Assembly (NCBI GenBank): GCA_003142955.1
Contig: PLOH01000105.1
Coordinates: 1 to 64,000, forward strand
Source of the DNA: Opitutia bacterium
GTDB taxonomy: Bacteria; Verrucomicrobiota; Verrucomicrobiia; Opitutales; Opitutaceae
Direction of reading: 5' to 3'
Length of the DNA stretch: 64,000 bases
Shown: piece by piece, positions 32,416-46,988 of the stretch
Layout of the letters: each line of letters starts with the position of its first letter
Position numbering within the stretch: the stretch's first letter is position 1
Made by a program: the position numbers and the translations under genes
The notes under the pieces: model-generated
Told to the model about the DNA's origin: nothing
Seen by the model: the letters and a program-made list of their open reading frames with translations, nothing else
Databases searched by the model: none

Positions 32416-35400
32416 TCAACCCGCATCGCACACGCTGCGGACGTTCTCCACCAGGCTTTCGATGGTGAACGGTTTCTGGATGAAATGCACCCCATCAATC
32501 AGCACGCCGTTGTCTGCGATCACATCGGCGGTATAGCCCGACATGAACAGGCATTTCAGTTGCGGATGGCTGGAGCGAAGCCGGTCGCGCAGCTCTTTCC
32601 CGTTCATCCCCGGCATCACCACGTCGGTAATCAGCAGGTGGATCGGCCCGGCATGTTGCGCCGCCAGGGTTAGCGCGGTCTGCGGCGTGGACAAGGCCAG
32701 CACGGTGTAGCCGTATTGCTGCAGAATCCGCCGGCCGAGATTTAGAATCTGTTCCTCGTCTTCCACTAACAACACCGTCTCGGTGCCGCGCAGCGAGCGG
32801 CGGGCGGATTCCTGCGCCGCCGCCACCGCTTCGGCTTTGGCGCGCGGCAGGTAAATCTTGAAGGTCGTCCCTTTGCCCGGCTCGCTATCGACGTTAATCA
32901 ACCCTTGATTCTGGATGACGGTCCCAAACACGGTGGCCAGACCAAGCCCCGTTCCTTTTCCCAGTTCTTTGGTGGTAAAGAACGGTTCGAATAGGTGGGC
33001 GCGCGTCGCCGCATCCATACCCCGACCGTTGTCGCTCACGGCCAGCAACACGTAGTCACCCGGCACACAATCTGGAGGGCTCTGGGCACCGTGGGCGGCC
33101 AGCGTCAAGTTGCCCGTCTCAATGGTGACCTTGCCGACGCCGGCGATGGCGTCACGGGCATTGACACACAAATTGGCCAGAATCTGGTCAATCTGACTGG
33201 GGTCCATTCGCACCGCCCAGAGGTCGGCGCCCGGCAGCCAGGCCAGATTAACATCCTCACCGATCAGTCGGCGGAGCATCTTGAGCATGCCGGCGACGGT
33301 GTCGTTGAGATCGAGTATCTTGGGCTGAATGGTCTGCTTCCGGGCAAACGCGAGCAACTGCCGGGTCAGTTCCGCGGAGCGCTGGGCTGATTTTTGAATC
33401 TCTTCCAGATTCTCGCGCACCGATGTTCCCGGCGGAAGATCGTCGAGCGCCAAAGCCACATTGCCCAGGATGGCCTGGAGCATGTTGTTGAAGTCGTGCG
33501 CCACACCGCCCGCCAACCGGCCCACCGATTCCATCTTCTGGGCCTGAGCGAGCTGTCCCTGCAGCTTCTCCTTCTCCTCCTGCGTCCGCTGGCGCTCGGC
33601 GATTTCCCTTTTTAGATCGGCGTTCGTGTTCGACAATTCCGCCGTGCGTTCGTTGACCCGGCTCTCGAGTTCGGCATTGAGCCGGCGATAACGTTCCTCA
33701 CTCGCGGCCAGGGCCGTGGTCTTCTCCATGGTCTCCTCGACCTGACGGCCGAGCTGCGTGTTGGTAACATTGAGCGCTGCGGTGCGTTCGGCGACCAGGC
33801 GCTCGAGGCGAACGGTTTCGCGCCGCTCCAGGAAAGCGAATAACCAGGCGACCAACAACACCAGGCCGACCGCGGCGGAGATGTAGATCACCCACGCCAG
33901 TCTCGTCCTGTACCACGGCGCCCGCACGGTGAAGGCCAGCCAGGCCTCCTCTCCCGGCTTCCCGGCGACGATCGGCCGCACATGGAAGACATAACTACCC
34001 TCCTTCAGCCGGTTGAACGATGCGGAGCCCACGTTGCCCGTCGACACCCATTGCTTGGCGGCGCCATCGAGCAGAACTTCAAAGGAAACCGGTGGATCAA
34101 ACGGACTGGAGACAGCGGCGAAGTGCACCACGAGCGAGTTGTCCGAGTAAGGCAGCGGAGGGAGGGTCAAGCCGGGGGTAAACAAGCGCTGGTTGCTCCC
34201 CGTCAGTTGCACGGAGGTGATCTGGGCGCGCAACGGAAGCTGCGGAGCACGCGGCAGGTGGGGATCAAAACGGATCAGATGCCCGCGACCTTGCATCAAG
34301 ATAACGCCGTCTGACTCCATGTTGAATTCGGTCGGTTCGAAACCAAGCGATAGGGATTCCATGGGCGGATGCTCGCCAGCTTTGGTGTCATCGACGACCA
34401 AGACACTGCCCCGACGAGCAAACCAGAGCCGGCCGGACGCGTCCCGCTCCGGTCGGCCAGTGCAGTCGGCCAGGGCCGGAATGCGGCGGATCAACTCCTG
34501 GTCCTCGACAAACCGTTGGGTGATTGCTTCGAAGCGCAGGATATGACCAGACGCAACGCACCGAGCGATTCCGTCGATGACAAAAAGTCCGGCCCAACTT
34601 CCGGCCACCCCTTCCTCTTTCCCGAAGATCCGGACAGTGGGTGCCCCGGCGCCAAATTCCACCCTTCCCACATGGTCGCCCAGCTCTAGCCAGACCGTAC
34701 CGGTGGAATCCGTCACGGCGTTGTACACGGTCCCGAGTTTTTCAACCGGTATTCGGTCGACGGCAAACCGGCCGGCCGATTCTTGGAGCCAGCCAATTTC
34801 GTTGCGTGCGGCATAAAAGATCCGCCCGTCGGATTGTGGGCGGCCAATTCCGACCCGCGCGTTGGTGATACCCGCCGCGATCTCTTGCCAGCCCGTGCCC
34901 TCACGGACGAAAATCCCGTCACGGCTGGTTGCGAATAACCTGCCCCCGGTTTCAGCAATTGCCCAGAGTAACTGCAAGGGGGGCATGTCCAGTTCAAAGC
35001 GCTCCAAGTACCCATCCGGGTTCAGCACACCGCGCAGCAGTTGGCGGTCGGCCAATACCCACAACTCGCCTTGGTGCCGCAAGGGCTTAACATAGCTCAT
35101 CGAACTCGCGAGCAGAGGTTCGAAATCGGAGATCGGCGACGGGAACTGCACCCGCACCAAGGCGTTGTCGAGCAGCGCCCACAGCACGCCATTGGGCGCA
35201 TACGCCAGACGGCGGACCTGCGACAACCGATGGTCGAGCGAGCGGGTGAGGACTTGCACCAACCGTCCGCCGCGTTCGAAAAAGACGATGCCCACCGTGT
35301 CGACGGCCGCCGCGTAAAACTCGGTTCCAATGTGGCACAGGTCATTGATGCGGCGTCCCGGTCCCAGAATTCTTGGAACGGGGACGTCACTGAAGGATCT

Positions 35401-36189
35401 TCCATCGAAAGCCAGAAGACCGCCCCGAGCCGTACCGACGATCACCTGTTCCGCCCCATAATCCACGCTGTCCGTCACCCCTCCGGTAGCGAGCGGATTC
35501 TTCAAGGGAACGGCTGTCGCGTCCCCTCCCAAATGTATCTGGTAAAGGAGACCGAGGGATTCATTGCTGGCAAACCGCTCGTTGCCAACGGCGAAAATGT
35601 GTTCGATCGCGACAGACGGGAACCGGGAGGTTCGGGTGGTCTGCCCGGGCCTCCAGGCAATGACCGTGCCACCGGCCGGCCCCCACAGCCAGGTATCGGA
35701 GAACTGGCTGACACGAAAAAACGGATCGCCAGGAGGAACCTCGGCCACCGGCACAAAACGCCAGTGCGCGTCCTCACCCAGATCGATCCGGGCAATCGCT
35801 CCGGGGATGGCCGCATAAATCCGGCCATCATCGTCTACCGCCACCTGTTCGTAGATGAATCCGGTCTGGTCAGCGGCTTCCTGGTAAGTCTCCCAGCGCA
35901 CCCCGTCGCCGATCGCGATTTCATGCTGCGAGACGACCAGGATCCTGCCGTCCGGCAGGATATGGAGATCAGACGGCGCGGTGCTGAGTCCGAGCGATTC
36001 CGGACCGAGCACGACGAACGACGGAGCGCCGGTCTCGACCACTCCGGCCGGCGGTGCCGGGATAGCGTCACTCTCGGCGCGTGCCGCCACGACGCCCACG
36101 GCCATGGCGAAGGCGAGGAAAAGAACGTACCCTATCCATCCACACCAAAGGCAGCGATTGCGCCAGGGGAAGGATCTCGATTGCGGCAT
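32416..36189 (-). CDS. Hybrid sensor histidine kinase: beta-propeller sensor, Y_Y_Y, TM, HisKA/HATPase, receiver
   Basis: SVGRLAGGVAHDFNNMLQAILGN; NLCVNARDAI; DNGRGMDAATRAHLFEPFFTTKELGKGTGLGLATVFG; TVLLVEDEEQILNLGRRIL...LLITDVVMPGMNGKELRDRL. Confidence 0.9.
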   Translation of the reverse strand: MPQSRSFPWRNRCLWCGWIGYVLFLAFAMAVGVVAARAESDAIPAPPAGVVETGAPSFVVLGPESLGLSTAPSDLHILPDGRILVVSQHEIAIGDGVRWETYQEAADQTGFIYEQVAVDDDGRIYAAIPGAIARIDLGEDAHWRFVPVAEVPPGDPFFRVSQFSDTWLWGPAGGTVIAWRPGQTTRTSRFPSVAIEHIFAVGNERFASNESLGLLYQIHLGGDATAVPLKNPLATGGVTDSVDYGAEQVIVGTARGGLLAFDGRSFSDVPVPRILGPGRRINDLCHIGTEFYAAAVDTVGIVFFERGGRLVQVLTRSLDHRLSQVRRLAYAPNGVLWALLDNALVRVQFPSPISDFEPLLASSMSYVKPLRHQGELWVLADRQLLRGVLNPDGYLERFELDMPPLQLLWAIAETGGRLFATSRDGIFVREGTGWQEIAAGITNARVGIGRPQSDGRIFYAARNEIGWLQESAGRFAVDRIPVEKLGTVYNAVTDSTGTVWLELGDHVGRVEFGAGAPTVRIFGKEEGVAGSWAGLFVIDGIARCVASGHILRFEAITQRFVEDQELIRRIPALADCTGRPERDASGRLWFARRGSVLVVDDTKAGEHPPMESLSLGFEPTEFNMESDGVILMQGRGHLIRFDPHLPRAPQLPLRAQITSVQLTGSNQRLFTPGLTLPPLPYSDNSLVVHFAAVSSPFDPPVSFEVLLDGAAKQWVSTGNVGSASFNRLKEGSYVFHVRPIVAGKPGEEAWLAFTVRAPWYRTRLAWVIYISAAVGLVLLVAWLFAFLERRETVRLERLVAERTAALNVTNTQLGRQVEETMEKTTALAASEERYRRLNAELESRVNERTAELSNTNADLKREIAERQRTQEEKEKLQGQLAQAQKMESVGRLAGGVAHDFNNMLQAILGNVALALDDLPPGTSVRENLEEIQKSAQRSAELTRQLLAFARKQTIQPKILDLNDTVAGMLKMLRRLIGEDVNLAWLPGADLWAVRMDPSQIDQILANLCVNARDAIAGVGKVTIETGNLTLAAHGAQSPPDCVPGDYVLLAVSDNGRGMDAATRAHLFEPFFTTKELGKGTGLGLATVFGTVIQNQGLINVDSEPGKGTTFKIYLPRAKAEAVAAAQESARRSLRGTETVLLVEDEEQILNLGRRILQQYGYTVLALSTPQTALTLAAQHAGPIHLLITDVVMPGMNGKELRDRLRSSHPQLKCLFMSGYTADVIADNGVLIDGVHFIQKPFTIESLVENVRSVCDAG

Positions 36190-36436
36190 GACAAAACGAT
36201 GGACGTTGCTTCGGCGGATCATACTAAAAGTCGAGCGTGGAACCCGAGGGTTAGGCGCCCTAAAATGAGTATTTCATCACCTCTGGCCGCTTGCAAATAA
36301 ACTAATTCGACTCGCGATGAGGTTGGCGCTGCCGACGTCTTCATGCGTCCGAGTTTACGACCTGTTCACAAAGAACAATCAAAGCAGAATTGAATTGCGC
36401 TTCCCGACCCCCCTAGCCTGTTCGATCTCCGCAAAC

Positions 36437-39088
36437 CATCCCGCGATGATCGCTTTTGATTCCGTTCTTTCCCGTCACATTTTGCTGGGCTGGGCTTGGT
36501 TTTCGTCGCCAGCCTTCGCGCTGACAATTCTATTCAGATCAGCGTCAATCCCGGAGCGGGACAAATTCCGATCAGCCCCTATGTTTATGGCACCAATCAG
36601 GATCTGCCGGGGGTTGCCGCTCCTGGATCCCGCCGGAGTGGCGGCAACCGGCTGACGGGGTACAATTGGGAGACCAATGCCTCGAACGCTGGCACCGATT
36701 GGTACAATAGCAGCGACAACTTCATGGTCTCGGGACTACCGGCCCAGCAGCAAAGTCTGCCGGCGATCGCGCTGACCTTGTTCCACGATCAATCGCTGAC
36801 GATGGGGACTCCGTACACCGTGCTGACTCTGCCAATGGCCGGCTACGTGGCGGCCGATGAAAGCGGCACGGTCACAGCCGCCCAGGTGGCACCGTCCTCC
36901 CGGTGGAATGCTGTTGTAAACAACAAACCCGGTGGCGTCTACCTTAGCTCGCCCAACCTGACCGATGGCGTTGTCTACACGGATGAGCTGCTCAATCTTC
37001 TACTGACTCCAGTCCGCGACTCCCGCCTACCGCTGGTTTCTTGACTACTACCTCGACCAGATGAGCAACGCATCAACGACGGCGGGTAAGCGCCTTCTCG
37101 ATGTCCTCGACCTCCACCGTTACAGCGACGAGAACATCGGCGGTCCATCCGCAGGCACGCCGATCACGAGCCAGACAGACTTCACGGACACGACGACCAA
37201 TCTGCAAAGGATTCAAGCTCCCCGCGTTCTCTGGGACCCGACCTATGTGGAGAACAGCTGGGTACAGGAGTGGTACCCCCAATTCCTGCCGTGGATTCCG
37301 AATATCCAGGCCTCCATCGCAAAATACTATCCCGGGACCAAGCTGTCGTTCACCGAATACTGCTACGGCGGCGAAAGCGATATCTCAGGGGGGATCGCCC
37401 AGGCCGACGTCCTTGGCCTCTACGGAAAATATGGGGTGCGCCTCGGATGCCTCTGGCTCCTCCACGGCACGCCCCCACCCTTGTATGTCTCCGCGACGTT
37501 CAACCTCTACCTCAACTACGATGGGAACGGTGGGAAGTTCGGCGCGACTTCCGTTGCGGAAACGGACTCCGATACGGTCAACTCCTCGGTCTACACTTCG
37601 GTTGACACCGCGAATGCCCTCCATCTGGTCGTGCTGAACAAGAGTTATACCGCGACGGCCAACCTCAGTTTTCAGATTGCGGGATCCACGATCTACCCCA
37701 GCGCCCAAGTCTACGCTTTCGACGCCAATAGCTCCGCCCTGACGCTTCGCGCGCCGGCCGCACTCACCAACAACCGGTTCAGCTACACGCTTTCGCCACT
37801 CACCGCGGCCCATTTTTTCCTACCGGCGCCCTCGCCCGACCAGGCGTTTTTGCAGCAGCTCTTCGCGGATGTCCTGGGCCGGCCGATCGATCCCGGTGCG
37901 CTCAGCAGCTTTGGCGCGGCGCTAATCGGAGGCGAATCGCAGGTAGCGGTATTAGGCGATCTGTTTGGCTCGACCGAATATCGCCTGCGGCAGATCGAGC
38001 CGGCAATCCGTCTGTACTATGCGGCCTTCGCGCGGTGTCCGGATTATGCGGGTCTCCAGAACTTGGCCAACGCGCTGCAGACCGGTGCTCTTACGTTGGC
38101 TGGCGCAGGCGACCAATTTGCCTCGAGCGCGGAGTTTCTCCTGGACTACGGCAGCTTGGACAACACGGGGTTTGTGCAGCGGCTCTACCTCAACGTGTTG
38201 GGCCGCAAAGCTGATCCTGCGGGCCTGGCCAACTGGGTGGCGTTGCTCGATGCGGGCGCTTCGCGCGGGACCGTGTTGATTGGGTTCTCGGAGTCCCCGG
38301 AGTTTCAGGCGGACATTGCCAGTCAGGTGGAGATCGTACGACTGTATTACCTGCTGCTGAAGTGGATGCCGGCGGCGGCGGAACTGCAGAGCCGCCTGGG
38401 GTTTTTGCAGGGCTACGGCCAGACGGACACGTTGTTTGCGCAAGGCTATTCCTCGGGTCTTGCTGATTCCGACTATGTGCGGCTGGTTTTTCAGGGTTTC
38501 CTGCGGCGGGCGGCCGATCCGGGGGCGCTCAGCGCCTTTAGTAGTGCTTTGACCGCCGGCACGGTTACGCACGGCAGCTTGGTGAACACGCTGCTCAGTT
38601 CGACCGAGTCTAATCTCTACGTGGCACCGGCCTCGCGGCTATATCTGGCCGCCTTGCTTCGCGTGCCCGATCAGCCGGGCTTGGACAATTGGGTAGCGTA
38701 CGTGCGCGCGGGCAATTCGCTGCAATCCGCGGCCGACGCGTTCGCCGCGAGCCAGGAGTTTATGAACCGCTACGGTGCGATGAACAACAGTGACTACGTG
38801 TCTACACTTTACGTCAACGTCCTTGGCCGGCAGGCGGATCCGACCGGTCTGGCCGATTGGGTGGCGCAGCTGAATGGCGGCGCCAGCCGCGGGCAGGTGT
38901 TGATCGGCTTCTCCGAATCGCCGGAGGCTGTCAATCGCTTCGCCCCAACCGTGCGCACATTCTTGAGTTACTTCACCTTCCTCAATTTGACTCCCGCCCA
39001 GTCGGATCTCGACACCTGGAAGAACTATCTCGCCACGCTCGACGACCAGCTGCGCAACGATCTGCTCGCGACAATTTCAACCTCCTGA
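36437..39088 (+). pseudogene. GH44-family glycosidase fused to DUF4214 repeats, interrupted by frameshift and internal deletion
   Basis: GH44 N-part YVYGTNQDLPGVAAPGSRRSGGNRLTGYNWETNASNAGTDWYNSSDNFM in ORF 36496-37044, C-part YRWFLDYYLDQMSNASTTAGKRLLDVLDLHRYSDE and SFTEYCYGGESDISGGIAQADVLGLYGKYG in ORF 37061-39088. Confidence 0.75.
37845..39085 (+). repeat. Four DUF4214-like repeats arranged as two ~208-aa super-repeats
   Basis: LGRKADPAGLANWVALLDAGASRGTVLIGFSESPEF and LGRQADPTGLADWVAQLNGGASRGQVLIGFSESPEA about 620 bp apart; two more divergent copies interleaved. Confidence 0.8.
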
Positions 39089-42405: not shown

Positions 42406-43497
42406 CTATTTTCGCTGGAGGCTGGCCGGCCGCTTGGTTCGCACCGGAACACCGGAAGCATGGCAGTCGGCGCATTTGACGAAATGGATATTGTGGCGGC
42501 TCGCGGAAGATTTGAAGGTCGTGTCCATCCGCTCCACCTCGAGGCCGCAATTCGACAGCCGGGGATGGCAACTCGCACAGGAGGCGCGGGCATTCAGCTC
42601 ATGCCCGCCGTGACAGGCTTGGCAGCTCAGGCCCTCGTGCACCCCCACGCACGTCCGATCGTCCCCGGAACCCGCCTGGAAAGTGAAATCCGGTGCATGG
42701 CATTGGTAGCAGATCCCTTGGCGTGTGTCGGGCGACACGCTCACCGGCCGGGTGCCGTCGAACATGGCCGGCAACGGCAGCAGTTCCGTGCGGAAATGCA
42801 CCTGTTCGCGCCGATCATAAAACGCCGCCGGCGACGGTGGCGCCGCGGGAGGATTCGCCTCTGAGGCTATTGGAAGCAGGCCCAGCGGCGTTCCAGGACG
42901 GTGCACTTCATGGCAGGCCAGGCAGGGAATCGACGCCTCACTCGGCTGGACGGAGGCGGTGGCGAGATGCCAGGGCCCCTGGCGGGTGAGCGGCTGGACC
43001 AACTCCCGGATGCTCCGCTCAAAGTACATTCCGTGGCACAGCAGGCATTGGTCGTTCAGGAGCCGTTTGGTGTTGTGGTCGGAATTCAGGAAGATCCGCT
43101 CGTAGGTCGCGTGGTGCGGTCCAGCGGCCCAGGACGCAAATTCCTGCTGGTGGCATTTGCCGCAACGTTCGTTCATGCCCCGGCTGATGTCGCGCTGCTG
43201 GACCAACAGTCGCTCGGGCACCTGCCCGCGAAGATGCCGCCAGAGTTGGCGGACGTTGTTCAAATGGAACCCGACGTCCGTCGAGAAAATGCTGCCGTGG
43301 CATTCCTTGCACTGCACGGAACGGTGCGATGAGGCCGTCCAAAGATGATAGGCAGGCTCAAGTTCGTGACAGCGGATACAGGCTTTGCCGCCCGCGGCGG
43401 CGTAGTAGACGCTTCCCGCCGGCACGGCCAGAAGCAGCAGGGCGATCGGCACCGCAAGCACCAGCCAGATGATTCGATATTTTCGTCCGGTTGCCAT
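42406..43497 (-). CDS. Nine-heme c-type cytochrome with N-terminal membrane anchor
   Basis: Nine CxxCH motifs: CIRCH, CKECH, CGKCH, CLLCH, CLACH, CYQCH, CQACH, CASCH, CADCH; TM helix IIWLVLAVPIALLLLAVPAG. Confidence 0.9.
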   Translation of the reverse strand: MATGRKYRIIWLVLAVPIALLLLAVPAGSVYYAAAGGKACIRCHELEPAYHLWTASSHRSVQCKECHGSIFSTDVGFHLNNVRQLWRHLRGQVPERLLVQQRDISRGMNERCGKCHQQEFASWAAGPHHATYERIFLNSDHNTKRLLNDQCLLCHGMYFERSIRELVQPLTRQGPWHLATASVQPSEASIPCLACHEVHRPGTPLGLLPIASEANPPAAPPSPAAFYDRREQVHFRTELLPLPAMFDGTRPVSVSPDTRQGICYQCHAPDFTFQAGSGDDRTCVGVHEGLSCQACHGGHELNARASCASCHPRLSNCGLEVERMDTTFKSSASRHNIHFVKCADCHASGVPVRTKRPASLQRK

Positions 43498-43506
43498 GAC
43501 GATTGA

Positions 43507-45162
43507 TCAGCGGAGTCCCCCGCCCCGCCAGGTGCGCTTGATGAAATCCGAGGCGTAGTACGCGATCGCCATGATGGTCAGCACCGGATTAAAACCGCCG
43601 TTGTTCACGTGGACGCTCGCGTCGATCACGAACACGTTGTCCACGTCGTGGAGCTTGCAATGCGGATCGACCACCGAGGTCTTGGGATCGCGGCCCATGC
43701 GGCAGGTCCCGGCTTGGTGCTGTCCGGCGCTCAGCCACCGCTGCTCCTTCTGGCGCCGCAGCGTCTGGATCGCGCCCGCTTCCTTCAGCCAAAGCTCGGC
43801 CATGTCGGAGGCGTGCTTGCAGAGTTCGATGTTGTGCGGATGATCCAGGCCGGAGAGCCGCGCGACGGGAATACCCCAGTAATCGCGGACCCGGGAATCC
43901 ACCTGCACGCGCGAATCGAACACCGGCATTTCCTGCGACGGGCCCATGATAACGATGCTCCGCCGGAACCACGTCCGCATGAAATCCTTGTGCGCCTTGC
44001 CCCAGCGCGGCAGGCCGGGCGGACCCATGCCGGCAAATTGGTACGGCAGGCGTTGGAATTCGTTCGCCAGCATCGCCCCGCCCACCAGGCCCTTGTTTCC
44101 ATGATTGAAATCGCAAATGGCAATTTGCGCGCCCGGGCCCAGATCGTCGTAGATATCGTGGTCGAACAAGCCGAGCGCACCGCTGTAGGCGTGGCCCTGG
44201 AGATTGCGCCCCACCCAATCGAACCGGTTGCCCAGGCCCTGGGGAAAGAGCTCGTTTTTCGAATTCAGCAACAGGCGGGCGGACTCGATGGCCCCGCCGG
44301 AAACCACCACCAGGTCCGCCGTCTGGACCTGCCGACGGTTGTCTTCGTCGAAGTATTCGACCGCGCGGGCCCGGCCCTTCGCGTCCAGCAGAATGCCGGC
44401 GACGATGCTGCGCGTGCGCAGTTCACAATGTCCGGACGCGAGCGCCGTGGGGATCACCGTGTTTTGGGTGCCGCACTTGGCATTGCATTCGCAGGCGAAG
44501 CCGCAGCACCAGCGGCACCGCATACATCCCGCCCGTCCGTTGTACGGGACTGTATTGCGGAGCATCGGAATGTAGAACGGATGCCAGCCGAGGCGCTGCG
44601 CGGCGGGCATCAACAGCTGCGTCTCCACGCAATCAGGCAGGGGCGGCATGGGCAGAGGCCGGCGGCGCGGAGCCTTGAACGGATCAGCACTCTGGTCGCC
44701 GGAAACGCCGATTTCCCATTCCGCTTTCTCGTAGAACGGTTCCAGGTCGTCGTAGGCGATGGGCCAGTCCTCCAGCGTACTTCCGTCCGGCGCGCCGTAG
44801 AGGGATTTCATCCGGAAATCCTGGGCCATGTAGCGCCAGGCCATCGCCCCGTAGCTCAGCGTCCCGCCTCCGACGCAGGCTGCGTTGTTGTTATAGGACC
44901 CGTCCGCCGGCCAGACGACTTCGGCGTGCCCCTGGGCATCGACAAACACCCGCGGTTCCTTTTCCTCGTCCGGTCCATACGGAGCGCCCAACGCGGTGGT
45001 CCGCTGGTTTCTCAGGTCGTCCTTGCGCTCCTCATCGGGCGTCACCCAGCGGCCGCGTTCCAGCACGACCACATCCAGGCCCGCTTCCGCCAGTTCCTTG
45101 GCCACCACGCCGCCGCCGGCGCCCGACCCGATGACCACGGCATTGACGTGTTTGAAACTCAT
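43507..45162 (-). CDS. GMC-family FAD-dependent dehydrogenase (gluconate/glucoside dehydrogenase large-subunit-like)
   Basis: VVIGSGAGGGVVAKELAEAGLDVVVLERG; VSGGAIESARLLLNSKN; QHQAGTCRMGRDPKTSVVDPHCKLHDVDNVFVIDASVHVNNGGFNPVLTIMAIAYYASD. Confidence 0.9.
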   Translation of the reverse strand: MSFKHVNAVVIGSGAGGGVVAKELAEAGLDVVVLERGRWVTPDEERKDDLRNQRTTALGAPYGPDEEKEPRVFVDAQGHAEVVWPADGSYNNNAACVGGGTLSYGAMAWRYMAQDFRMKSLYGAPDGSTLEDWPIAYDDLEPFYEKAEWEIGVSGDQSADPFKAPRRRPLPMPPLPDCVETQLLMPAAQRLGWHPFYIPMLRNTVPYNGRAGCMRCRWCCGFACECNAKCGTQNTVIPTALASGHCELRTRSIVAGILLDAKGRARAVEYFDEDNRRQVQTADLVVVSGGAIESARLLLNSKNELFPQGLGNRFDWVGRNLQGHAYSGALGLFDHDIYDDLGPGAQIAICDFNHGNKGLVGGAMLANEFQRLPYQFAGMGPPGLPRWGKAHKDFMRTWFRRSIVIMGPSQEMPVFDSRVQVDSRVRDYWGIPVARLSGLDHPHNIELCKHASDMAELWLKEAGAIQTLRRQKEQRWLSAGQHQAGTCRMGRDPKTSVVDPHCKLHDVDNVFVIDASVHVNNGGFNPVLTIMAIAYYASDFIKRTWRGGGLR

Positions 45163-45767
45163 GGGCTTTGCGGCGCGCGGCTGGCGGTTGCAACGTTCCA
45201 GTCGGCGCTGAGCGGCCGGCGGCTGCGCACCGGCGGCGTGGGAAGGCCCAACATGCGCCAGCTGACCGCATCGCGATTGCCGCCATGACGCGGTCCGCCG
45301 TAAAAGCCCTCCAGCGTGTGTTCGACCAACCGGTTGAAGAAATCGCTGGCCGAAATCTGGCTCCAGACCGCGCCCGGGGCCTGATTCGATTCGAGTTTGC
45401 GGAGCAGTTCGTCCTGCTGCGCACTGTCCAGGTCAATGAACTCCTTGCTGAACAGGGTGAGACAGGACTCGCTCACCCCCTTGAGGCCAATCCGGTAAAG
45501 CGACTGATAGCGGCGATGATAGCCGACCAGCTTGCGGTCGATGAAGTCCACCACGCCCGCCCAGGCGGCCCCGGGATCCTTGTCCGCCGGGATGATTCGC
45601 TCGCACATGGCATTGACCGTCGCCGCCTCGGATTCGGTGAAATAACGGTGCGACGATCCCCAAAAAGAAGACGGCAACTGGATCAGAGGAGCGGCCAGCA
45701 GGGTCACCGAAGACGCGCGCAGGAAATCCCGTCGGGTCATGGGCCTGACTGAAGGCAAATTATCCAT
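45159..45767 (-). CDS. Gluconate 2-dehydrogenase subunit 3-like protein with Tat signal
   Basis: MTRRDFLRASSVTLLAAPLIQL twin-arginine; AMCERIIPADKDPGAAWAGVVDFIDRKLVGYHRRYQSLYRIGL; 4-bp overlap with the GMC gene. Confidence 0.87.
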   Translation of the reverse strand: MDNLPSVRPMTRRDFLRASSVTLLAAPLIQLPSSFWGSSHRYFTESEAATVNAMCERIIPADKDPGAAWAGVVDFIDRKLVGYHRRYQSLYRIGLKGVSESCLTLFSKEFIDLDSAQQDELLRKLESNQAPGAVWSQISASDFFNRLVEHTLEGFYGGPRHGGNRDAVSWRMLGLPTPPVRSRRPLSADWNVATASRAPQSP

Positions 45768-45878
45768 AGGGGTCCGCCTAGTTGGGGAATCAGACGAGGC
45801 AAAGGCATTGGGGGCAGAGAACCTCGTCAGCCTCGAATTCATTGATCTGCCTGCGGCATTCGTCAAGCCTGGTGGATC

Positions 45879-46988
45879 ATGAAACACCCCACCCTCGTCT
45901 TAGGCCTGATTCTACTCACCGCCATAAGTGGGCTCGCCACCGATCCTGCCCGACCTTTCCGACTGGCCATCGTGGGCCTTGATCACGGCCATGTAGACGG
46001 CACCCTCGCCGAAACGCTCAAGCGAAGCGATGTGCGACTGGTGGGCGTCGTCGAGCCCAAGCCGGCCTTAGCTGCCCAGTATGCCCAGCGCTTTCACCTC
46101 CCCGCCTCCTTGCTGTTTTCAGATCTTGAGGAGATGCTCAAGACGGCAAAGCCCGAGGGGGTAATGGTGTTCACCTCGACCTTCGAGCACGTCCGGGTGG
46201 TTGAAACCTGCGCCAGGCACGGGGTGCATGTGATGATGGAAAAGCCGCTCGCTGTCTCCATGGAGCACGCTCGCGCCATTCAGCAGGCGGCCCGGCGCTC
46301 CTCCATTCACGTTCTCGTGAACTACGAGACCACCTGGTATCCCTCCCATGAACTCGCCTACGCTCTCGTCCGCCGGCAGGGTGCCGTCGGCGAACTCCGC
46401 AAGATCGTCGTTCGCGATGGACACCAGGGTCCCAAGGAAATCGGCTGCCCAGAGTCCTTCCTCTCCTGGCTCACCGATCCCGTGCTCAACGGCGGAGGCG
46501 CCATCATGGATTTTGGCTGTTACGGGGCCGATCTGATCACCTGGCTGATGCAGGGACAGCGCCCCCTCCGCGTCACCGCGGTCACGCAGCAACTCAAACC
46601 CGAGGTTTATCCGAAGGTGGATGACGACGCCACGATCATCCTGACCTACCCCCGCGCCCAGGGAATCATTCAAGCTTCCTGGAACTGGCCCATCGGACGG
46701 AAGGACATGGATCTCTACGGCGTCACCGGCGCGATCAAAGTCGCCGACCGCAACACGCTCCAGCTGCAAAACACCGACGGCAATGTTCATGATCTTACAC
46801 CCGCTCCGCTCGATGCCAGCTACCGTGAGCCCATCGCCTATTTTATCGCGGTGGTGAGAGGCGAGATCTCCGAGCATCCCCTTTCCTCTCTCGAGACCAA
46901 CCTAATCGTAACCGAGATTCTGGACGCGGCGCGACAGTCAGCCCGGACCCTTCGGAGCATCCAGCTGCCAGAAAAGCTCGAGGAGTAA
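45879..46988 (+). CDS. Gfo/Idh/MocA-family oxidoreductase with predicted signal peptide
   Basis: MKHPTLVLGLILLTAISGLATDPARPFRLAIVGLDHGH; HGVHVMMEKPLAVSMEHARAIQQAA. Confidence 0.88.
   Translation: MKHPTLVLGLILLTAISGLATDPARPFRLAIVGLDHGHVDGTLAETLKRSDVRLVGVVEPKPALAAQYAQRFHLPASLLFSDLEEMLKTAKPEGVMVFTSTFEHVRVVETCARHGVHVMMEKPLAVSMEHARAIQQAARRSSIHVLVNYETTWYPSHELAYALVRRQGAVGELRKIVVRDGHQGPKEIGCPESFLSWLTDPVLNGGGAIMDFGCYGADLITWLMQGQRPLRVTAVTQQLKPEVYPKVDDDATIILTYPRAQGIIQASWNWPIGRKDMDLYGVTGAIKVADRNTLQLQNTDGNVHDLTPAPLDASYREPIAYFIAVVRGEISEHPLSSLETNLIVTEILDAARQSARTLRSIQLPEKLEE

Follow-up and report, generated by a model that had tools for sequence, protein, structure and literature searches.

A conserved operon for a probable FAD dehydrogenase with a nine-heme, NrfH-like cytochrome in an Opitutia bacterium and in Acidobacteriota

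We analysed a 64,000-nucleotide stretch of DNA (positions 1 to 64,000 of contig PLOH01000105.1, assembly GCA_003142955.1; hereafter, the window) from an Opitutia bacterium, a Verrucomicrobiota assembly of 4.29 Mb that is 94% complete. Our subject is an operon of three genes in this window, which encode (i) a small protein, SML, which is the only PF13618 gene product in the genome; (ii) a GMC flavoprotein, the catalytic subunit of a putative flavin adenine dinucleotide (FAD) dehydrogenase; and (iii) a multiheme cytochrome, CYT (Table 1). The SML and GMC genes overlap by 4 bp, and CYT starts 9 bp past the end of GMC. A gene for a Gfo/Idh/MocA oxidoreductase, GFO, diverges from the operon at a distance of 111 bp from the SML start, and its product carries a signal of about 25 residues without a twin-arginine (RR) pair. 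Glycoside hydrolase (GH) genes surround the operon, namely two GH2, a GH44-like, a GH127, an MGH1/GH63-like, a GH29, a GH5, a GH9 and a GH13. A preliminary description of this locus had given the coordinates, signals, nine CxxCH motifs and tight junctions of the operon, as well as the exported, divergent GFO within a glycosidase-rich region, and every detail that we checked holds.

Table 1. Positions of the operon, of two features within it and of the divergent gene in the window.
Feature	Position	Strand	Description and basis
Small subunit, SML	45159-45767	minus	202 aa; gluconate 2-dehydrogenase subunit 3 family, PF13618 (E 2.7e-32)
GMC flavoprotein, catalytic subunit	43507-45162	minus	551 aa; PF05199 (3.9e-24), PF00732 (2e-12)
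Cytochrome CYT, membrane-anchored, nine CxxCH	42406-43497	minus	363 aa
N-terminal transmembrane anchor of CYT, residues ~1-36	43390-43497	minus	sequence and predicted helix (residues 3-34)
Cysteine-rich motif of GMC, CMRCRWCCGFAC, residues 213-224; probable Fe-S cluster site	44491-44526	minus	alignment to 6a2u; invariant columns
Gfo/Idh/MocA oxidoreductase, GFO	45879-46988	plus	369 aa; PF01408 (3.6e-20); Sec-like signal

A cytochrome alignment search of the GTDB species genomes returned 229 relatives, the best 80 of which were taken as our named set. These come mostly from Acidobacteriota (Bryobacterales, Solibacter and Acidobacteriaceae), with a few from Verrucomicrobiota and one each from genomes labelled Ignavibacteriae and Hinthialibacteria; the host's own relatives in the collection are Opitutae metagenome-assembled genomes (MAGs). 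In 75 of the 76 named loci with enough sequence, the gene directly upstream of CYT is GMC and shares its strand, and SML occupies its upstream place in 67 of the 68 loci where this could be tested. Junction spacing is mostly between -4 and +10 bp, a 4-bp overlap being the commonest arrangement at both junctions. Of 77 cytochromes, 73 have nine CxxCH motifs and four have eight. The sole exception to linkage is the Hinthialibacteria genome, in which the SML/GMC pair and an eight-motif CYT lie on separate contigs (L095 and L149), an indication that the partnership can outlive linkage. The order of the genes, the two tight junctions and the nine heme motifs are all kept across phyla, far beyond chance. 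A lack of conserved linkage in other genomes would have refuted the preliminary description; for GMC, small subunit and nine-heme cytochrome the linkage is there, and they are a genuine conserved unit.

The unit is found in 7 of 388 Verrucomicrobiota genomes in an even sample (with the three-gene order in 7 of 7), in 5 of 396 Acidobacteriota genomes and in 27 of 250 genomes from the class of a Solibacteraceae genome. These counts are lower bounds, with few candidates scored per genome. Carriers include MAGs from peat and fen. More distant GMC paralogues (less than 42% identity) in the same Acidobacteria are mostly paired with a small subunit and have no multiheme neighbour; the nine-heme partner therefore marks this particular GMC clade. 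Literature searches on GMC proteins with multiheme cytochromes, and on nine-heme cytochromes, found the unit described nowhere in the open-access papers searched; the combination is widespread and apparently undescribed. Its parts are of known kinds; the combination is new among three-subunit FAD dehydrogenases.

The GMC subunit begins directly with its Rossmann fold and has no signal peptide. Its predicted model has a predicted local distance difference test (pLDDT) score of 85, and both sequence and fold place it nearest, among solved proteins, to the catalytic subunits of Gluconobacter fructose dehydrogenase (FDH) and Burkholderia glucose dehydrogenase (BcGDH), with template modelling (TM) scores of about 0.8 at 22-26% identity. 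Pyranose oxidases reach a TM score of only 0.64, and choline oxidases are also set apart. All 48 sequences compared keep three cysteines, C213, C219 and C224, which align with the cysteine motif of BcGDH (6a2u) and are probable Fe-S ligands; the loop that holds them is of low confidence in the predicted model. H482 and N525 are likewise invariant, lie at the expected catalytic positions and probably form the catalytic pair.

SML carries the twin-arginine translocation (Tat) signal TRRDFLRASS. The RR motif is present in 45 of 48 SML relatives, and the other three start late or are truncated. SML probably escorts the GMC subunit through the Tat system. We note that an in-frame GTG upstream, at 45887, would give an alternative SML start (45159-45887) overlapping the divergent GFO start; the Tat signal agrees better with the ATG at 45767.

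The nine heme motifs of CYT are CIRCH, CKECH, CGKCH, CLLCH, CLACH, CYQCH, CQACH, CASCH and CADCH, and its predicted model has a pLDDT of 83. The best profile match in the PDB is NrfH (2j7a; E 5.3e-8), over the anchor and the first hemes, and a fold search with the model likewise ranks NrfH first (probability 0.99). The C-terminal hemes are C7-like and match a solved protein of the c7-type cytochrome family (PDB 3oue; E 6.5e-9). A Pfam scan found no class-I cytochrome c domain in CYT. Across 65 CYT sequences, exactly nine histidines outside the CxxCH motifs are kept in at least 90%: H58, H88, H128, H141, H199, H287, H299, H335 and H338. This is the number of additional ligands needed for nine hemes, which suggests that the hemes are bis-His ligated. 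Hemes ligated in this way usually have low potentials. Low-potential hemes of this kind would suit menaquinone.

The similarity of the CYT N-terminus to NrfH raises the question of whether CYT is an NrfH homologue that serves nitrite, nitrate or some other respiration and lies beside the dehydrogenase by chance. Three observations argue against this. CYT is linked to this GMC in all but one of the 76 loci; it scores 46 bits against the full-length NCBIfam NrfH model, whose cut-off is 134.2; and the host's own genome, at 94% completeness, yielded no NrfA above the cut-off of that family. We therefore rejected a nitrite reductase pathway for CYT, which is now highly improbable. The preliminary description had named a separate nitrite/nitrate-type pathway for the cytochrome as a second ground for refutation, and on this ground too it is not refuted. 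The Pfam NapC/NirT model also matches CYT below its cut-off. As a separate observation, a weak, sub-cut-off match to the NrfA family and a heme-copper oxidase gene are some 9 kb apart on contig C119 of the same genome (L190, L192); the match is perhaps another respiratory multiheme cytochrome.

We compared the operon with its closest known systems. The FAD glucose dehydrogenase of Burkholderia cepacia (6a2u/8grj) and the fructose dehydrogenase of Gluconobacter (7w2j) resemble it in the GMC fold, the Fe-S cysteines, the catalytic His/Asn pair, the Tat-linked small subunit and the presence of a membrane cytochrome subunit. Their cytochrome, however, is triheme, and that of the Burkholderia enzyme has Met ligands (PMC5979317, PMC6472588), whereas CYT is a non-homologous, NrfH-like protein with nine hemes that are probably bis-His. 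Set against the triheme type of glucose dehydrogenase, FDH and gluconate 2-dehydrogenase, the operon thus has the fold, the cysteines and the Tat small subunit; since CYT is without the three class-I His/Met heme domains, we file it as a variant outside the triheme group. LacABC of Caulobacter and the glucoside 3-dehydrogenase of Rhizobium and Agrobacterium, likened here by description, are also three-component, membrane-bound systems for periplasmic sugar oxidation (PMC9007349). The acceptor of the Rhizobium enzyme, CYTc, is mono-heme (PMC9915066), in contrast to the nine-heme CYT, and a DUF1080 hydrolase lies near the lac genes of LacABC but not near the operon in the window. Finally, the quinol dehydrogenases NrfH, NapC and CymA share the N-terminal transmembrane anchor and first hemes with CYT. 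They have four hemes, whereas CYT has nine and is extended by its C-terminal multiheme part; CYT also differs in its GMC dehydrogenase partner, in a presumably reversed direction of electron flow and in not keeping the methionine at heme 1.

Taken as a whole, the operon probably encodes a periplasmic, membrane-attached, three-subunit FAD dehydrogenase for a sugar or glycoside, which would feed the quinone pool through its NrfH-like hemes. In this scheme, the small Tat subunit would carry the folded GMC subunit across the membrane, where GMC would oxidise a hydroxyl of the sugar or glycoside with FAD and the His482/Asn525 pair. Electrons would leave GMC through an Fe-S cluster at Cys213/219/224, pass to the periplasmic hemes of CYT and move from one bis-His heme to the next until they reach the NrfH-like cluster at the membrane anchor. 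From there they would enter the quinone pool, probably menaquinone, and go on to terminal oxidases, so that CYT would work as NrfH in reverse. The host genome has three heme-copper oxidase genes. There are precedents for several of these steps: in BcGDH, a 3Fe-4S cluster receives the electrons of FAD and delivers them to the cytochrome, and Tat export of the complex follows the hitch-hiker mode through the small subunit (PMC5979317, PMC9727119), while related triheme complexes reduce ubiquinone (PMC9171043).

Four observations weigh against this scheme. CYT and NrfH agree in fold only in part (Foldseek E 0.17; TM 0.54 over 120 columns). The methionine of the heme-1 CxxCHxM motif is poorly kept, with Met in 27 of 65 sequences, Ile in 35 and Leu in 3, the window's CYT being among those with Leu; the quinone site may therefore differ from that of NrfH. 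A sequence profile search gave no significant match between SML and a solved small-subunit homologue. Lastly, neighbouring genes differ from locus to locus, and the substrate is not fixed by sequence.

Nine hemes far exceed what quinone reduction needs, and CYT could instead be an outward wire, carrying electrons across the periplasm to other cytochromes or to extracellular acceptors rather than to the quinone pool. The resemblance of its C-terminal hemes to the c7-type family protein and the peat and fen MAGs among the carriers are in keeping with this. No second many-heme gene recurs beside the operon in the loci examined, however, and both the NrfH-like membrane anchor and the heme-copper oxidases of the host genome argue for an inward route. 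We consider an outward wire quite unlikely. A more far-reaching reading is that the operon stands for a separate and so far undescribed family of carbohydrate:menaquinone oxidoreductases. In it, a reversed, NrfH-like nonaheme cytochrome would have replaced the triheme His/Met one found in ubiquinone-linked sugar dehydrogenases, fitting the low-potential menaquinone chains of Acidobacteria and Verrucomicrobia. This may be so, at somewhat less than an even chance in our judgement.

The preliminary description had extended the unit to a module of four families that included Gfo/Idh/MocA, and this extension is not supported. In G003, a genome of the same genus whose CYT is 86% identical, the operon sits among unrelated genes without any Gfo/Idh/MocA gene, and a close relative of the window's GFO occurs in none of 35 long named loci. 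We therefore rejected a conserved four-gene module. These same two findings also speak against a more local idea, in which the operon of this genome would work together with GFO and the glycosidases as a single functional island. The divergent arrangement of GFO and operon, so close together within a stretch rich in glycoside hydrolases, is what one would expect of such an island; on balance we regard it as unlikely.

Gfo/Idh/MocA is nonetheless the commonest neighbour family, with 5 of the 109 neighbouring genes scanned (two of the five added by hand), and other Gfo/Idh/MocA genes lie near a minority of operons. No accessory neighbour shared by more than about 10 loci was found. Recurrent neighbours include a Tat protein family in 9 loci and a GH3-like family in 5. 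A probable pyrroloquinoline quinone (PQQ)-type dehydrogenase family was also seen near the operon in 10 loci (L024:10663-12522 and nine others). We attempted to name the substrate from neighbouring genes, and the attempt failed.

A substrate-specific version of the quinone-linked scheme is that the complex opens a 3-keto-glycoside pathway: a disaccharide or aryl-glycoside would be oxidised at C3 in the periplasm, as by LacABC, and an exported Gfo/Idh/MocA protein, an isomerase or a 3-keto-hydrolase would then take over. LacABC with DUF1080 is a known precedent for such a pathway (PMC9007349). In the Verrucomicrobiota locus L161, the operon is flanked by fitting genes, in the order Tat Gfo/Idh/MocA, SML, GMC, CYT and Tat xylose-isomerase-like barrel, and in L016 genes for ThuA and a Tat Gfo/Idh/MocA protein lie close to the operon. 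The host genome encodes six 3-keto-disaccharide-hydrolase domains (PF06439). Further afield, small-subunit/GMC fusions occur on plasmids of Paenibacillus, Deinococcus and Lichenicola (L196:5449-7581, L198:5464-7623 and L200:4347-6614, respectively). They resemble the operon's products in both domains and in the Fe-S cysteines, with a GMC identity of 46-50% for the first two, but differ in being one polypeptide, with no cytochrome annotated next door and no Tat motif seen at the start. The fused gene of Deinococcus aetherius lies between a GH3 gene and a set comprising Gfo/Idh/MocA and two sugar isomerases. This context, together with the six hydrolase domains, makes 3-keto-glycoside chemistry, the reading of the preliminary description, plausible on indirect grounds. 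On the other hand, no such neighbour is conserved in most operons, none of the six PF06439 domains lies on the window's contig, the window's GFO scores far below the cut-offs of 3-dehydrogenase models, and in the comparisons made, nothing ranks known 3-dehydrogenases above glucose or fructose dehydrogenase as relatives of GMC. We thus hold the 3-keto-glycoside pathway as a tentative possibility, on the doubtful side.

We also observed a small subunit and GMC followed by a Gfo/Idh/MocA gene in Mesorhizobium (L199:4277-6566), with a sugar ATP-binding cassette (ABC) transporter before them. None of the Fe-S cysteines is present in this GMC, and its surroundings have no annotated cytochrome.

In GMC trees, the window's clade, which includes two Verrucomicrobia MAGs, falls among Acidobacteriota, and a second Verrucomicrobiota lineage, including the Opitutus-like G008, lies apart from it. 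A single Verrucomicrobiota lineage of the operon was rejected by an approximately unbiased (AU) test (p 1.3e-7), a result for which the long branches of L016 and L163 call for some caution. Because the window's clade sits among Acidobacteriota and a single Verrucomicrobiota lineage is rejected, the operon was likely acquired laterally from Acidobacteria, as far as the trees can tell.

Two further features of the window lie outside the operon. At 36496-39088, a GH44-like sequence stops at 37044, and an open reading frame of 675 codons with DUF4214 repeats starts 16 bp on; a frameshift or stop may have divided what was a single gene. Beside the glycosidase cluster lies a gene for a hybrid sensor kinase of 1268 aa (32416-36222; HisKA, HATPase and response regulator domains) with a large N-terminal region.

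Fermentation by acetic acid bacteria and glucose sensors with direct electron transfer both rely on three-subunit FAD sugar dehydrogenases, with mono- or triheme cytochromes throughout. If our proposal is correct, the widespread version with a nine-heme, probably bis-His, NrfH-like cytochrome would mean that these enzymes can exchange the module through which electrons leave, and it could serve as a new scaffold when enzymes are coupled to electrodes. It would also suggest a way in which periplasmic sugar oxidation is coupled to respiration in soil Acidobacteria.

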